A DNA stretch of 30,709 bases, taken from a virus. The notes beneath the pieces are model-generated. The model was not told the origin of the DNA, searched no databases, and worked only from the letters and a program-made list of their open reading frames with translations. The position numbers and the translations under genes are program-made. The stretch spans positions 1 to 30,709 of the IMG/VR virus record IMGVR_UViG_3300025889_000608. The stretch is one strand, 5' to 3'. Of the stretch, positions 1-30,709 are shown one piece after another. The stretch's first letter is position 1. Each line of letters starts with the position of its first letter.

Positions 1-8
1 AAATCCAC
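1..8. repeat. left copy of 8-base terminal direct repeat
   Basis: The first eight bases, aaatccac, are identical to the last eight of the window. A match of this length at exactly both ends is unlikely by chance (about one in 65,000). It suggests either a circular molecule cut with a short overlap or filled-in 5-prime cohesive ends. The junction lies upstream of the candidate small terminase gene, where a cos site is normally found. Confidence 0.5.
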
Positions 9-1474: not shown

Positions 1475-1520
1475 AACTTTCTCGCGGAAAGTTGTTGCCT
1501 CTGGTTAGCCTCGCGTTAAG
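1475..1520 (+). promoter_or_regulatory. promoter with overlapping operator, copy 1 of 3
   Basis: An inverted repeat with arms AACTTTC (1475-1481) and GAAAGTT (1487-1493) runs into TTGTTG (1492-1497), followed after exactly 17 bases by GTTAAG (1515-1520). The same arrangement recurs at 9191 and 29872. After the -10-like hexamer comes GTAGCCAC (1523-1530), also conserved, and then the ribosome site GGAGACAG. The palindrome covers the -35-like element, so a bound repressor would block RNA polymerase. The -10 match is weak, and the promoter call rests on the conserved spacing in three unrelated contexts. Confidence 0.65.
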
Positions 1521-1548
1521 GTGTAGCCACAAGCAACGGAGACAGACC

Positions 1549-1812
1549 ATGGCACGCAACCGCAACGACATCATCATCATCGGCCGCGCGGGCTTCTTTA
1601 GCCCTTCACTTCAGCGAGAGTTCGGAAACGGGCCGATCGCGCTCCGCCGCAAGGAGCATCGCAAGTGGGGATGGTGGTGCTCCGCGACGAGTCGCTCGGC
1701 GGCCCGCTTCGCCTCGGAGGTCGAGGCCCGGGCCTGGGTGTACCGGACTTTCAAGTCACCGGCGGATCACACCAACCTCAGCACAATGGATCGGCGACTC
1801 CTGACCCGCTAG
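1549..1812 (+). CDS. small protein of unknown function, first gene of plus-strand cassette
   Basis: 87 residues from ATG 1549, which has GGAGACAG three bases upstream. The in-frame ATG-like start at 1492 lies inside the promoter and is rejected. The protein is basic (many R and K), with a short hydrophobic patch IIII at residues 8-11 and a WGWWC segment near residue 40. I recognise no family. It is the first gene after the operator/promoter at 1475 and sits between the candidate origin and two further small genes. A role as an early accessory (host takeover or anti-defence) protein is a guess from context only. Confidence 0.75.
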   Translation: MARNRNDIIIIGRAGFFSPSLQREFGNGPIALRRKEHRKWGWWCSATSRSAARFASEVEARAWVYRTFKSPADHTNLSTMDRRLLTR

Positions 1813-1832
1813 GCCGCCCGCCTCACCTCGAC

Positions 1833-1866
1833 GCCCGCCTCGGCGGGCTCTCACACTGGAGACAGC
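1833..1866 (+). repeat. hairpin plus ribosome-site block, copy A
   Basis: A 34-base block, identical to 2130-2163, that combines a GC-rich hairpin (GCCCGCC, TC, GGCGGGC at 1833-1848) with a leader containing GGAGACAG. It links the first and second genes of the cassette. The hairpin has no T-run, so it may trim or stabilise mRNA or attenuate transcription rather than end it fully. Confidence 0.7.
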
Positions 1867-2121
1867 ATGAAGTTTGTAGCAACCGAGATCCTCGTCACTC
1901 GCAACGACCGGGGCACGATCTTTGTCGAGATCGACGGTGACCTCGTCGCCGACGCGATCACCTTCCAGCGGCGCCGCGGGTTCTGGAACAAGCGCACCGA
2001 ACGCTGGGCGTCGGCCCGGCAGTTCACTCCGCGCAAGGTCGCCGCATCGCCTGAGCTAGTTCGCCACTACCTTGCCGAGACGGGCCTCGATGTCATCGGG
2101 CCGATCGTGGTCCGGTTCTAG
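1867..2121 (+). CDS. small protein of unknown function
   Basis: 84 residues from ATG 1867, with GGAGACAG one base before it. The sequence alternates hydrophobic and charged residues (FVATEILVTRND, TIFVEIDGDLVADAITF), suggesting a small beta-rich fold, and ends in a hydrophobic strand VIGPIVVRF. Residues 34-55 are basic and aromatic. I recognise no family. Both sides carry the same hairpin-leader block, so the gene looks like an exchangeable unit within the cassette. No membrane segment or signal peptide is visible. Confidence 0.75.
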   Translation: MKFVATEILVTRNDRGTIFVEIDGDLVADAITFQRRRGFWNKRTERWASARQFTPRKVAASPELVRHYLAETGLDVIGPIVVRF

Positions 2122-2129
2122 CCACCGCC

Positions 2130-2163
2130 GCCCGCCTCGGCGGGCTCTCACACTGGAGACAGC
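2130..2163 (+). repeat. hairpin plus ribosome-site block, copy B
   Basis: Exact second copy of the 34-base block at 1833-1866, with the hairpin at 2130-2145 and GGAGACAG at 2155-2162. One extra A separates it from the next ATG. The two copies enclose the 84-residue gene and could support loss or gain of that gene by recombination. Confidence 0.7.
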
Positions 2164-2164
2164 A

Positions 2165-2470
2165 ATGCGATTCAAACTGACCGACAACCGGCGCGAGAAG
2201 CTCGCCGTCATGGAGGCCCTCGGCTTCGAGGCGCTACCCGTCGACCCCTACAATACGCGACACCAGCGGGTCCGGTGCTCCTGCGGTAAGGAACTCCCCT
2301 ACTACCGCGTCGACATCGCCCGGGAGCATCGCGCCGCGTGTCAGCCCGCCGAGGCCGTCGAGGCGCCCCTCGGATGGAACGGCGCCGGGAACATCCCGCG
2401 GCGAGTAGCAGAGCAGATCGCCCACTACTTCGGAGAGATGGCGCGACATCCCGAGGAGACCCGACTCTGA
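2165..2470 (+). CDS. small zinc-finger-like protein, function unknown
   Basis: 101 residues from ATG 2165, chosen over the longer frame from 2072 because GGAGACAG stands three bases upstream and the longer start lies inside the previous gene. Residues C38, C40, H55 and C59 (CSCGKELPYY...REHRAAC) form a plausible CxC...HxxxC zinc site. The C-terminal part (residues 78-101) is helical and amphipathic. The nearest idea is a small nucleic-acid- or protein-binding zinc finger, but I cannot name a family. It is the last gene of the cassette and is followed by a strong hairpin terminator. Confidence 0.75.
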   Translation: MRFKLTDNRREKLAVMEALGFEALPVDPYNTRHQRVRCSCGKELPYYRVDIAREHRAACQPAEAVEAPLGWNGAGNIPRRVAEQIAHYFGEMARHPEETRL

Positions 2471-2495: not shown

Positions 2496-2527
2496 GCCCG
2501 CCCCTCGGCGGGCTTTCGTCGTCTTGG
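2496..2527 (+). terminator. hairpin terminator, shared with 30226-30257
   Basis: Stem GCCCGCC (2496-2502), loop CCTC, stem GGCGGGC (2507-2513), then TTTCGTCGTCTTGG. It ends one base before the TAG of the minus-strand helicase gene, so it separates convergent units. The same 32 bases, with one change (A for T after the stem), follow the plus-strand gene at 29947. Confidence 0.7.
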
Positions 2528-7900: not shown

Positions 7901-7961
7901 GGCTACCACGTTGCGCCGGGTAGCGTCAAGGCTTGCCAACTTGCCGCGGTGTGTGCTACGC
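7901..7961. promoter_or_regulatory. candidate divergent promoters between replication and Erf operons
   Basis: Minus strand: TTGACG (7924-7929), 17 bases, GTAGCC (7901-7906). Plus strand: TTGCCA (7933-7938), 17 bases, CTACGC (7956-7961). The -35 elements are good and the -10 elements poor. CTTGCC occurs twice close together (7932-7937, 7940-7945) and may be an operator half-site pair. The ATTTG-type operator found in the three cassette promoters is absent here, so this region is under different control. Confidence 0.45.
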
Positions 7962-7985
7962 CTCGCAACGTCCACAGGAGGACCC

Positions 7986-8660
7986 ATGAGCGACGAGACA
8001 ACCCCGCCCGGTGTGATCACCGTCGGCGGCTTGACGATGACAACCGCACAGGATCAGATCGCCGCCGCCCTCGCGAAGGCGCAAGCCCGGGTCAGGAAGG
8101 CCCGAAAGAACGCGCGAAACCCTCATTTGCGGAACGAATACGCCGATCTTGAGAGCGTGATCGACGCGACCCGAGGAGCCCTCGCCGAGAACGGCCTCGC
8201 GCTTGTCCAGGCACCCCAGGTCGTCGAGGGCGCGGCGGGCGTCCGGTGGACCCTCGTGCACGCCTCGGGACAGTGGATGTCGGGGGAGCTGATGCACGCA
8301 ACGGGCGGCGCGAAGGGCCTCCGACCCGCACAGGCGGACGGGGTCGCCATCAGCTACGCGCGCCGCTACACGCTGTCGGCCCTCCTCGGGGTCGCCACGG
8401 GCGACGACAGCGACGGAGCGGTCGAGGTTGCCGGTCGCGATCGGCGCTCGGGGAGGGTGATCGACCGCCGCGAGACGCATCCGAAGGTCTGGGCCTCCTT
8501 CGTCGAGGACCTCGCCGGGGTGAACCTGACCGTCGAGGAGGTCGATGCCTTCCTCGCAGCTCGGGGCCGCCCTCGATGCCACGAGACGCCCGACGACCGG
8601 TGGGGCGCCCTCGTCGCGTGGGCAACGACGCCCGAGACCGCGGCGAAGGTGCACGCATGA
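7986..8660 (+). CDS. erf: Erf-family single-strand annealing recombinase
   Basis: 224 residues from ATG 7986, with AGGAGG four bases upstream. The 25-codon-longer frame lies in the promoter region and is rejected. The core has the ERF family signature: NPHLRNEYADLESVIDATRGAL, then a strand pair ending in SGQWMSGEL, then GLRPAQADGVAISYARRYTLSALLG and GDDSDGA. Family members bind single-stranded DNA and promote annealing, as P22 Erf does during genome circularisation and recombination. The C-terminal third (residues 155-224) is a separate helical part, often variable in this family. It probably works with the phage SSB and exonuclease. It heads a plus-strand operon opposite the replication operon. 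Confidence 0.92.
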   Translation: MSDETTPPGVITVGGLTMTTAQDQIAAALAKAQARVRKARKNARNPHLRNEYADLESVIDATRGALAENGLALVQAPQVVEGAAGVRWTLVHASGQWMSGELMHATGGAKGLRPAQADGVAISYARRYTLSALLGVATGDDSDGAVEVAGRDRRSGRVIDRRETHPKVWASFVEDLAGVNLTVEEVDAFLAARGRPRCHETPDDRWGALVAWATTPETAAKVHA

Positions 8661-8926
8661 CGCCCCGGGAGGAGAGGCTCGAAGCGTTCCTTCGGGGCCG
8701 CGGTTGGGGGCTCGCATGGCACGGGCCGCCCGCTGATCGGTGGTTCTGCGCTCGGGCGGTCTCGCGCCCGTGGACCGGCCTCGTCGTCTCGGTGCACGTC
8801 ACCCCCGACGCCGACGAGGTTGTCGAGCTGGAGACGCTCGGGTCGCCGACCGTCGAGAGGCTCCTCGGATGGACCCAGGACCTACGCGAGGCCCTCGAAG
8901 TCTACCACCGGCCCGACAGTGACTAG
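8657..8926 (+). CDS. small protein of unknown function
   Basis: 89 residues from ATG 8657, overlapping the Erf stop as ATGA. The protein begins with a charged helix (TPREERLEAFLRGRGWG) followed by strands (WFCARAVSRP, TGLVVSVHV) and an acidic C-terminal helix. It is an alpha/beta protein without a recognisable motif. Translational coupling to Erf suggests a recombination accessory, though this is only context. The longer frame starting at 8246 lies inside erf and is rejected. Confidence 0.75.
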   Translation: MTPREERLEAFLRGRGWGLAWHGPPADRWFCARAVSRPWTGLVVSVHVTPDADEVVELETLGSPTVERLLGWTQDLREALEVYHRPDSD

Positions 8927-9191
8927 GGCCGCCCTTGCCGCGGCGCGTCTCGGCTTGATCCTCTGGACGCCCCCGAAGTCGATCCTCGACGGCCTCGACA
9001 TCCTCGCCGAACTCGGAGGGGAGGCGACGGTCGGCGAGGTGCTCGCGCACGTCGGCGCGTCGAACTGGAGCAACTGGATCCAACGCCTCGACACTCTCGT
9101 CGCCCGCGGCCTCGCCGAGGTGATCGAGGGCCGCCCGAGGCGCTACCGGCTGACGAGGGCGGGCCGATTGTTGCGGACGAAGGCGGCGTAA
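8919..9191 (+). CDS. winged-helix DNA-binding protein
   Basis: 90 residues from GTG 8919, overlapping the previous gene by eight bases. LDGLDILAELGGEATVGEVLAHVG (from residue 23) followed by SNWSNWIQRLDTLVARGLAEVIEG and RPRRYRLTRAGRLL has the helix-helix-recognition-helix-wing pattern of MarR/PadR-like winged helices. Its TAA stop lies on the first base of the operator palindrome at 9191. A regulator encoded directly beside the operator it binds is a common arrangement, so it is a prime candidate for the protein that controls the three repeated operators. This link is inference. Confidence 0.75.
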   Translation: MTRAALAAARLGLILWTPPKSILDGLDILAELGGEATVGEVLAHVGASNWSNWIQRLDTLVARGLAEVIEGRPRRYRLTRAGRLLRTKAA

Positions 9192-9238
9192 CAACTTTCT
9201 CCCGCAAAGTTGTTGCGCCTGTATTGCCTTGCGTTAAG
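9191..9238 (+). promoter_or_regulatory. promoter with overlapping operator, copy 2 of 3
   Basis: Perfect 8-base inverted repeat ACAACTTT (9191-9198) and AAAGTTGT (9206-9213) with a 7-base centre, overlapping TTGTTG (9210-9215). After 17 bases comes GTTAAG (9233-9238), then the conserved GTAGCCAC (9241-9248) and GGAGACAG (9254-9261). Layout and spacing are identical to copies at 1475 and 29872. It drives the plus-strand genes from 9265 onward, giving them control separate from erf. Confidence 0.7.
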
Positions 9239-9264
9239 TGGTAGCCACTGAACGGAGACAGACC

Positions 9265-28429: not shown

Positions 28430-29845
28430 TCACCCGTAGCGCAATGAGAGAGCCACCGCCCGCTGAGAACCAACGAGCCTCTCGACAGGGTACCTCGCCG
28501 CATCCAAAATATCCTTACTCGGATCCTGCTTGTGTCCCTGAAAGACCATGAAGGCCCTAGCTAATTCGGGACACCGCGGCGAGACGAGGAGGTGAGGCGT
28601 CCCCCTCGTGTCGGTCGCCGAGAGGCTATTCAACATCGTCAACCCGGCGACGACGCTCCCGTCGAACTTGCGCGGAGTCGTGATCCGCGGGAAGCGATTG
28701 TAGGCGATCCCCGCGAGGGCGGCGAGGTGTCGCCGAAGGATGCTGTTGCTCTTTCGGACGAGGCCCCGGGCGTCCGCTGGACGGTCGCCGACCCAGAGGT
28801 CGACGTCCTCGACTTCGAGGCCCGCCCGGTGAAGCATCGAGACGATAGCCCGGGCGTCCTCCTCCTGACTCGTCTGTGCGTGCCCGACGTGCTCGGCGAG
28901 GTACCAGACCCGAGGCCGTAGGGAGTCAGCTCCGACGACGGCCCCGACCACGGCGGCCTGTTTGCCTCCGACGATCCCGTGGTCGATCCCGACGAAGACG
29001 ACGGCCCCGGCGGGCGGCTCGTCGCCCCGAACGTGGGTCTCGGTGCTGAATGCCGAGATCCACCGCTCGTCGACGAGGGGATCCCACGCGCCCTCGATCC
29101 TCATGCGCTGGACGGGTAGCGGTAGCGAGGCCCGGAAGGAGTCGAGCATCGTCCGCGAGTAGTAGGGGAACGGCGCCCCGTCGGGGAGGCAGTTCTCGGG
29201 CTTCAACCCGTGATTGTGCTCGACGATTACGCCCCGGTCGATCAGGTCGCGTAGCCATTGCATATCGGGCATGTTTGGAACGGGCGTGAAGTTGATCCGC
29301 ATCGTCCCGCCATACTTGAGAAGCCGCGGTCGAAGCTCCTCATACGTGCCCGCCGGCATCGGCTCATCCGAGAGGACGTGGTGAATGGTCGAGCCCGCGT
29401 AGCGCGTCGGGTCCTGTTTGAACGTCCCGAAGAAGATCACCGACCCCGCGCCCGGGCCGCTTCGGAACACGAGCCGCGGAGGCTTGCCGGTGATCCCCCG
29501 CCCCGGCTCAAAGCCGGTCTTCGGGTCGAGTTCCTCGGTCGGGATCAGGTTGTATAGCTTCTCCATAATCCCGCCCGGTTGCCCCATCTGCTCCAGGCTG
29601 ACGCCCACGACGACGGCATACACAGGCGGGCGCCTCACGGCCTGCCAAGGGTGCGTCCCTCGGCATCGATGGACGAGGTCGACGAGGGAGCCCGTCGTCT
29701 TGCCCAACTGATTGCCATCACGCCAGAGGGCGATCGGGGCGGCCTCCTCCAGCCATTGCCGCTGAGGCGCGGTCGGCCTGAAGCTGAACAGCGAGCACGA
29801 GAGCGAGTCGAGGAGGACGTCGCGCGTCGCCTCTGCCCAGCTCAC
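28430..29845 (-). CDS. terL: terminase large subunit
   Basis: 471 residues from GTG 29845. Walker A GNQLGKTT at 44-51, Walker B VLSDE at 157-161, and the nuclease domain opens with VVFVGIDHG, D288 being the first metal ligand. Coupling motif region follows Walker B (RINFTPVP). The protein packages and cuts phage DNA at the portal. The nuclease end contains the usual later acid patches (VDLWVGDRPADARG). Length is normal. The candidate small subunit lies just upstream but is separated by the plus-strand cassette at 29872-30257. The start has no strong ribosome site, so an internal start is possible. Confidence 0.92.
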   Translation of the reverse strand: MSWAEATRDVLLDSLSCSLFSFRPTAPQRQWLEEAAPIALWRDGNQLGKTTGSLVDLVHRCRGTHPWQAVRRPPVYAVVVGVSLEQMGQPGGIMEKLYNLIPTEELDPKTGFEPGRGITGKPPRLVFRSGPGAGSVIFFGTFKQDPTRYAGSTIHHVLSDEPMPAGTYEELRPRLLKYGGTMRINFTPVPNMPDMQWLRDLIDRGVIVEHNHGLKPENCLPDGAPFPYYSRTMLDSFRASLPLPVQRMRIEGAWDPLVDERWISAFSTETHVRGDEPPAGAVVFVGIDHGIVGGKQAAVVGAVVGADSLRPRVWYLAEHVGHAQTSQEEDARAIVSMLHRAGLEVEDVDLWVGDRPADARGLVRKSNSILRRHLAALAGIAYNRFPRITTPRKFDGSVVAGLTMLNSLSATDTRGTPHLLVSPRCPELARAFMVFQGHKQDPSKDILDAARYPVERLVGSQRAVALSLRYG

Positions 29846-29871
29846 GCGAGAACCCCGGGCGGCCCTGCGGT

Positions 29872-29920
29872 TACAACTTTATCGCAGAAAGTTGTAGCCA
29901 GGATGCGACGGCGCGTTATG
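29872..29920 (+). promoter_or_regulatory. promoter with overlapping operator, copy 3 of 3
   Basis: Nine-base inverted repeat TACAACTTT (29872-29880) and AAAGTTGTA (29888-29896) with 7-base centre, overlapping TTGTAG (29892-29897); 17 bases on, GTTATG (29915-29920), then GTAGTCAC (29923-29930) and the ribosome site GGAGACAG (29938-29945). It is the most perfect of the three operators. It drives a plus-strand gene between the two terminase genes. Confidence 0.7.
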
Positions 29921-29946
29921 TTGTAGTCACCAAACAGGGAGACAGT

Positions 29947-30204
29947 ATGAACCTCACCGACCGCATCGCTCGCCAGTTCCAGACCGTGTTCGCCAACGAG
30001 GGCGCGACCGTTACCGTCAAGCTTGAGCGCAACGCCCTCCGCGGCGCGTTCCTCTCGGTCGAGGGCCTCGACGCCGACTGCGCCACGGTGCGCGACCTGC
30101 TCTCCAAGACTGGACAGGCGACCTGGACGGATCGTCTCGACTTCCGCCAGTTCGACGAGCAGACCGAGACGGTCGAGGTCGTCGACTACTACTCGATCGC
30201 CTAG
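29947..30204 (+). CDS. small protein of unknown function in a self-contained reverse cassette
   Basis: 85 residues from ATG 29947, with GGAGACAG one base upstream. Begins with an amphipathic helix (MNLTDRIARQFQTVFANEGA) then strands (TVTVKLERNALRGAFLSVEG) and an acidic C-terminus ending VVDYYSIA. No family recognised and not similar by eye to the proteins behind operator copies 1 and 2. It has its own promoter and terminator and runs against the late transcript, so it is probably expressed early or independently. Candidate accessory (moron-like) gene. Confidence 0.75.
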   Translation: MNLTDRIARQFQTVFANEGATVTVKLERNALRGAFLSVEGLDADCATVRDLLSKTGQATWTDRLDFRQFDEQTETVEVVDYYSIA

Positions 30205-30225
30205 CCCGCCCCCGAGGCGACCACG

Positions 30226-30257
30226 GCCCGCCCCTCGGCGGGCATTCGTCGTCTTGG
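30226..30257 (+). terminator. hairpin terminator, shared with 2496-2527
   Basis: Stem GCCCGCC (30226-30232), loop CCTC, stem GGCGGGC (30237-30243), then ATTCGTCGTCTTGG. It matches the terminator after cassette 1549-2470 at 31 of 32 bases. It ends three bases before the stop of the convergent candidate small terminase gene. Confidence 0.65.
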
Positions 30258-30260
30258 AGG

Positions 30261-30614
30261 TCACGACGTGGAGGCCCACGCACCCTCGACGCGGGCGACC
30301 CGGTCGCCGTCTCGCGAGAGGTAGATCGTCGCCCCGTGTCGGCGGGCGTATTCGTCGAGGGCGCTCTCTAGGAGCGTGTCGGGGATGTCGGGGAGCGCCT
30401 CGCGCCAGACCCTCTCACGATCGGCCCTCGACAGCTCGACGGGCGCCGCGGCTTGCAGTTCGGCGGCCTCGGCATCGAGGGCGACTAGCATCGCGTGAGC
30501 CTTGAGGACCGCCGTGAAGGACCGGGCCTGTCGGGCGGCGACCTGATCGAGGGCGATCTCCTCTTGACGCGCGCGGATCTCTTTCAATCGGGCGCGCCGT
30601 TGCTTCGGTGTCAA
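30261..30614 (-). CDS. candidate terminase small subunit
   Basis: 117 residues from TTG 30614, which has TGGAGG four bases upstream; no ATG or GTG option with a better site is visible. Residues 1-60 are a long helical, basic/acidic stretch (MTPKQRRARLKEIRARQEEI, then RSFTAVLKAHAMLVALDAEA), a possible coiled coil. The rest (SRADRERVWREALPDIPDTLL) is also helical. The call rests on position: first late gene, between the probable packaging end and terL. No HTH is clearly visible, so an unrelated head-module protein is possible. Confidence 0.45.
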   Translation of the reverse strand: MTPKQRRARLKEIRARQEEIALDQVAARQARSFTAVLKAHAMLVALDAEAAELQAAAPVELSRADRERVWREALPDIPDTLLESALDEYARRHGATIYLSRDGDRVARVEGAWASTS

Positions 30615-30663: not shown

Positions 30664-30683
30664 GCCCCTTTCCGGAAAGGGGC
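30664..30683. other. perfect 20-base palindrome near the genome end
   Basis: GCCCCTTTCCGGAAAGGGGC reads identically on both strands with no loop. It is followed by alternating GCGCGCGCGCG and lies 19 bases from the right end of the contig, in the gene-free stretch upstream of the candidate small terminase. The sequence suits a terminase binding or cleavage site (part of a cos), or a bidirectional terminator. The gene-free region across the joined ends (30615 to 33) is about 128 bases and holds no other gene. Confidence 0.6.
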
Positions 30684-30701
30684 GCGCGCGCGTGCGGGGT
30701 G

Positions 30702-30709
30702 AAATCCAC
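30702..30709. repeat. right copy of 8-base terminal direct repeat
   Basis: aaatccac, identical to bases 1-8. See the left copy; filled-in 5-prime cohesive ends of eight bases would leave exactly this pattern. Confidence 0.5.

Follow-up and report, generated by a model that had tools for sequence, protein, structure and literature searches.

Gene content and ends of the phage genome

The stretch of DNA analysed here (the window) is a single virus record of 30,709 bases with genes of the siphovirus type, among them those for the large terminase subunit (TerL), a tail tape measure protein, an ERF annealase, SSB, a primase/helicase and a RusA-like resolvase (Table 1). Upstream of terL, an earlier note on this DNA had placed a candidate small terminase gene. 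The position, size and conservation of this gene beside TerL at the genome end agree with that assignment, but no family model from the Pfam and PHROG profiles matches it convincingly, and it is referred to here as candidate terS.

Table 1. Features of the terminase junction and of related plus-strand units in the window
Feature	Position	Strand	Evidence or remark
Site-1 promoter-like block and leader	1475-1548	+	Copy of the block at 29872
Site-1 cassette, three small genes (1549-1812, 1867-2121, 2165-2470)	1549-2470	+	Hairpin and leader repeats between genes
Site-1 hairpin	2496-2527	+	31/32 bases shared with 30226-30257
ERF-family single-strand annealing protein	7911-8660	+	Pfam ERF 2e-23, PHROG 155 6e-33
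Site-2 promoter-like block and leader	9193-9264	+	Copy of the block
Site-2 cargo, 97 aa	9265-9558	+	Break in window/G002 homology
terL, large terminase subunit, 471 aa	28430-29845	-	PHROG 2 terminase large subunit, 2e-11
Promoter-like block and leader	29872-29946	+	Three copies in the window; core retained in three relatives that carry other cargo
Cargo gene, 85 aa, acidic (pI 4.5)	29947-30204	+	G+C by codon position
Compound hairpin, putative terminator (7-bp inner and ~10-bp outer stem)	30205-30259	+	Fold, conservation
Candidate terS, 117 aa, adjoins the genome end	30261-30614	-	Position; conserved and upstream of TerL in relatives as well

The first and last 8 bases of the record are identical (AAATCCAC, window 1-8 and 30702-30709), and all six related contigs share the position of their terS-proximal end. 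Together, these observations suggest that the genome is complete and linear, its 8-base 5' cohesive end having been filled in during library making. Within ~40 bases of the end (in 30678-30709), an alternating CG run recurs in the distant relatives L038 and L052 (within positions 1-40 in each), whose contigs have an end there too; the run may be a conserved piece of the cos site.

A search for cultured relatives in 50,697 phage records gave no match to TerL. Contigs binned with two genomes (G009 and G111) carry TerL relatives that are 45-50% identical; the first of these genomes is a "Deltaproteobacteria bacterium" assembly, a name that the taxonomy used assigns to Myxococcota. This hints at a Myxococcota host, but only as a lead, since bins may be contaminated by free phage. 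The other genome, an assembly of the same phylum, carries an unusual load of related phages: three different phage contigs (C56, C98 and C124; L050-L052) encode TerL proteins 46-49% identical to that of the window.

A plus-strand gene with shared flanking signals

Between the minus-strand terL and the positional terS lies a plus-strand gene of 85 codons. The earlier note had reported such a gene running against the terminase genes, and it is real: its G+C by codon position (0.64/0.41/0.92) follows the pattern of the phage's other genes. An antisense frame of 145 aa (29842-30279, minus strand) was rejected as a real gene because its codon-position pattern is wrong. The composition of the cassette is not foreign, with 65.5% G+C compared to 66.4% for terL and 69% for the genome.

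The 85-aa cargo has no match in Pfam, PHROGs, PADLOC, PDB, phage records, viral contigs or 284 same-phylum genomes, its only homologue in the databases searched being that of a near-identical relative of the window phage; among viral contigs, no cargo relatives were found outside this phage group. AlphaFold models were poor for this protein (single-sequence model, pLDDT 61) and for the G003/G002 cargo (pLDDT 52), so that any function assigned to the cargo is a guess. The best structural match in the PDB (E 0.04), to part of an unrelated phosphatase, was discarded. Accessory genes of other phages make a host-directed or counter-defence function plausible by analogy, and we would give this guess roughly even chances.

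Upstream of the cargo, a palindrome (AACTTT-N7-AAAGTT, 29875-29893) runs into a core of GTTGTAGCC-N13-GCGTTATG (29891-29920), and an SD-like GGGAGACAG stands immediately 5' of the ATG. This block has three copies in the window (1475, 9193 and 29875), all on the plus strand, directly before an ATG with a GGAGACAG leader and within ~75 bases 5' of it. With the copy at 1475, the one at 9193 shares 82% identity and the one at 29875 shares 70%; the core pattern across copies is GTTGTWGC-spacer-GCGTTAWG. G004 has a broken palindrome and site 2 of G002 a rearranged one, with the core retained in both. One reading of this pattern is that the core is the promoter and the palindrome a putative, dispensable regulatory site.

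On the other side of the cargo, the sequence GCCCGCCCCTCGGCGGGC[T/A]TTCGTCGTCTTGG is found at 2496-2527 and at 30226-30257 with 31 of 32 bases identical, a match expected 0 times in shuffled sequence. This bears out the earlier observation that the element resembles the one after the 1549-2470 cassette. The region folds strongly (-37.8 kcal/mol, z -4.8), and the hairpin is kept at 2496 and in all four filled relatives, its copies differing at few positions when checked for covariation.

It had also been proposed that the gene has its own operator/promoter and a terminator. Three block copies before plus-strand ATGs and a strong, conserved hairpin would fit these designations, but a consensus scan of the region revealed no sigma-70 promoter and a terminator scan no U-tract; hence, the labels promoter and terminator are putative, drawn from position, conservation and folding.

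Related units elsewhere in the window

Both ends of the cassette have copies elsewhere in the genome, as previously stated: the block at 1475 and 9193, and the hairpin at 2496. At site 1, the tandem genes are set apart by 39-nt units of hairpin and leader, 97% identical to each other (1829-1867 and 2126-2164), which the earlier note did not describe. Such units could let single site-1 genes be gained or lost through recombination. At site 2, G002 carries a different gene (137 aa) behind its own version of the block; homology between the window and G002 ends at ~9188, the edge of the block, and resumes at ~9588, in the leader of the next gene.

A winged-helix-like protein encoded at 8919-9191 ends 2 bases before the site-2 palindrome. 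It shows weak matches to CARF/Csa3 and TrmB-type regulators and is a candidate regulator of the palindrome.

Turnover of the junction among relatives

Searching with TerL identified six viral contigs, one of them (G001) nearly identical to the window. G007 and G008, found through the helicase, are different phages and were left out of the junction comparison. In G002, G003 and G004, TerL is 92-99% identical and the same block and hairpin occupy the junction, with other genes inside: the cargo, 85 aa long in the window, has 154 aa in G002, 162 in G003 and 56 in G004. Those of G002 and G003 are related (51% identical) with diverged N-terminal halves and thus constitute a mosaic inside the cargo. 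When the flanks are aligned, the hairpin side is conserved from terS across the hairpin as far as the cargo's final GCC-TAG, where frame homology starts, and the other side from terL across the block into the leader. Among the filled junctions, homology is lost at the start codon and the last codon, and mainly the interior differs.

The next relatives have no cassette. In L006/L007, with 83% TerL identity, the junction is empty and the terS stop and terL start overlap by GTGA. Empty junctions, with terS and terL overlapping or adjacent, were also found in eight more distant relatives (L037, L052, L053, L054, L055, L058, L059 and L017), which brings the TerL lineages with an empty junction to nine. 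GTGA borders both junctions, but as it is also the terS stop and the terL start, it does not prove a target-site duplication. In the TerL tree, the four filled phages stand on one side of a branch with support 96/93, which corresponds to one change. Since the filled phages share one supported branch and both the nearest and the distant relatives are empty, we conclude from these sequence comparisons, which cover four independent filled sites, that a single gain of the cassette was followed by replacement of its cargo. The earlier note had named fixation of the gene in all relatives as what would refute its reading; instead, the next relatives lack the gene and close ones carry others in its place. 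The gene also runs antisense to the late genes.

These comparisons also bear on the idea that the cargo regulates packaging or a late switch and was placed at the terminase genes for that function. Its antisense position between terS and terL near the genome end would fit, as would the acidity of all four cargoes (pI 4.5-5.1). However, the cargoes are unrelated, no cargo is present in relatives whose genomes end in the same way, and acidic proteins are common in this proteome, the pI of the 85-aa protein being the seventh-lowest of 42. We regard this role as highly improbable; the cargo is accessory and lies outside core packaging.

In G002, two extra genes lie between the genome end and terS (L003 96-1261), one for QueC (Pfam 7e-31) and one for a 199-aa protein without a family. 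They are possibly an insertion for 7-deazaguanine DNA modification and a second variable slot beside the packaging genes.

Probable shuffling of signals and limits of mobility

Some of the signals do not track their site. The terS-terL block of G004 agrees with the site-2 block of G002 at 38 of 41 positions, as against only 26-33 for the other terS-terL blocks, and this match extends over 68 bases to 8 bases beyond the start codon. Similarly, the spacer of the G002 terS-terL promoter matches the site-1 and site-2 spacers of the window at 8-9 of 13 positions and the terS-terL spacers of the window and G003 at only 2-3. As the sequences are short, this supports, but does not prove, a shuffling of promoter variants between sites. 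The site-1 hairpin is identical to the terS-terL hairpins of G003 and G004 over 32-33 bases.

Could the whole unit of promoter, gene and terminator then have moved together by illegitimate or homologous recombination, as in a classical moron? Promoter variants common to different sites, the near-identical hairpins at 2496 and 30226 together with the exact matches of the site-1 copy in G003 and G004, and the polymorphism in presence are all in its favour, and it is a possible reading. We nevertheless consider it rather unlikely, because the outer frame aligns with the flanks in four of four phages, which means that mainly the interior was turned over, because the frame was not found in other phages and because the composition is not foreign.

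The suggestion that the cassette is a mobile moron-like unit thus holds for its variable presence, copied ends and shuffled promoter variants, but not for self-mobility. Scanning of the genes revealed no transposase, integrase or other mobilising enzyme among those covered, and block and hairpin were not found in other viral contigs, both of which led us to reject a self-mobile element. The remaining matches to the block and hairpin patterns were chance hits or coding sequence in unrelated phages, with the surrounding structure missing. Since relatives of frame and cargo were found only inside this phage group, and the composition is not foreign, exchange is seen only within the group. In terms of its sequence, the cassette is moron-like with a frame mostly inherited with terS and terL, and its turnover concerns mainly the reading frame within a conserved slot.

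A probable accessory-gene slot at the terminase junction

Taken together, the terS-terL junction is probably a slot for accessory genes, gained once, in which the interior was then replaced inside an inherited frame. One ancestral event would have put block, reading frame and hairpin, in reversed orientation, at the junction of terS stop and terL start, and the outer frame would then have been inherited with the terminase genes. The open reading frame from its start codon to its last codon, at times with part of the promoter, would have been replaced at least twice, yielding three unrelated cargo families. If the block acts as an early promoter and the hairpin as a terminator, the cargo would be expressed early in infection and apart from the late genes: the block would drive it, the hairpin would halt transcription before terS, and late transcription in the opposite sense would cross the region afterwards. 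The cargo may act on the host or its defences.

The breakpoints suggest how such replacement might occur. Co-infecting relatives would recombine at the shared leader/block and stop-codon/hairpin sequences, swapping the reading frame, and the phage's own ERF annealase would be the simplest agent of homologous recombination through so short a frame. Phage Rad52-like recombinases, including Erf of phage D3, recombine diverged sequences efficiently and far exceed the RecA pathway on such sequences in a lambda assay (PMC3945230). ERF-driven exchange through the shared frame is the most likely route, with ERF implicated by association.

A different account explains the repeated signals by one regulator and without mobility: all plus-strand units would carry the same early promoter and similar hairpins, the copies would reflect function, and the terS-terL gene would be a fast-evolving early unit. 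The single orientation of all block copies directly before plus-strand genes, the retained core beside a variable palindrome, a frame mostly inherited with its site and the winged-helix-like gene abutting the site-2 block speak for it. It leaves unexplained the empty sites, the unrelated cargo despite 92-99% identical TerL, and the resemblance of the G002 terS-terL spacer to those of sites 1 and 2 rather than to those of the window and G003. A common regulon without mobility appears improbable to us as the complete account; a shared regulon and an exchange slot are compatible and can be true together.

A bolder extension of the slot reading, which we consider doubtful, is that block and hairpin are a standard docking frame of short fixed sequences, repeated around the genome, that lets the annealase insert any small frame. 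If it were true, the phage would shuffle exchangeable early genes at several sites, including the interior of the late operon, without a dedicated integrase.

In the slot as observed, one site is filled, differently filled and empty among close relatives, and the breakpoints fall where the reading frame starts and ends. Candidate recombining sequences flank it on both sides, which makes a model of homology-driven exchange directly testable. The slot is also a place to seek new small phage proteins acting on the host, possibly in Myxococcota.

Comparison with known systems

Morons have been defined in lambdoid and other phages (PMC4378225) and are known from SPP1 (PMC6316719). Like them, the slot holds one gene, flanked by promoter- and terminator-like signals of its own, between genes that are adjacent in relatives, interrupts the late region and is variable in presence. 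In contrast to them, its signals are not canonical, and different genes take turns within one constant frame. A base composition differing from that of the neighbours is usual for morons but not required (PMC4378225); this trait is missing here (65.5% G+C in the slot, 66.4% in terL). Some morons are expressed from a repressed prophage; here, the genes scanned included no integrase. Moron acquisition has been described as mysterious, and the variable regions concerned were reported to have no recognisable common flanking sequences (PMC4378225), unlike the slot.

Two further kinds of element were considered and set aside. An integron gene cassette, which is a promoterless gene with an attC recombination site and depends on an IntI integrase, is at odds with the promoter-like block before the cargo at every site and with the lack of an integrase among the genes scanned, the attC motif being judged by eye only. 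A homing endonuclease (HNH, LAGLIDADG or GIY-YIG) was rejected, as the 85-aa cargo has no Pfam or PHROG match.

The SAS and ESAS elements of Cluster K mycobacteriophages consist of a 13-bp GGGATAGGAGCCC at start codons and, for ESAS, 17-bp imperfect inverted repeats (PMC3203893). As here, they are start-adjacent, SD-like repeats, some with imperfect inverted repeats, before non-structural genes of different families. The sequences are unrelated (GGGATAGGAGCCC there, GGAGACAG here), the arms measure 6-9 bp here instead of the 17-bp repeats there, and one copy here lies in reverse orientation within the late operon, opposite a hairpin that is shared. In part, the cargo units thus seem to work like SAS/ESAS-headed genes, but they fall outside the sequence definition.

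Mosaic exchange by Rad52-like recombinases (PMC3945230) likewise swaps short, gene-sized segments between related phages at flanking homology; it was tested in lambda and E. coli, whereas here it is a candidate process to which the ERF gene and the breakpoints point. Relative to these systems, the distinctive point of the terminase junction is a fixed frame with a replaceable interior.
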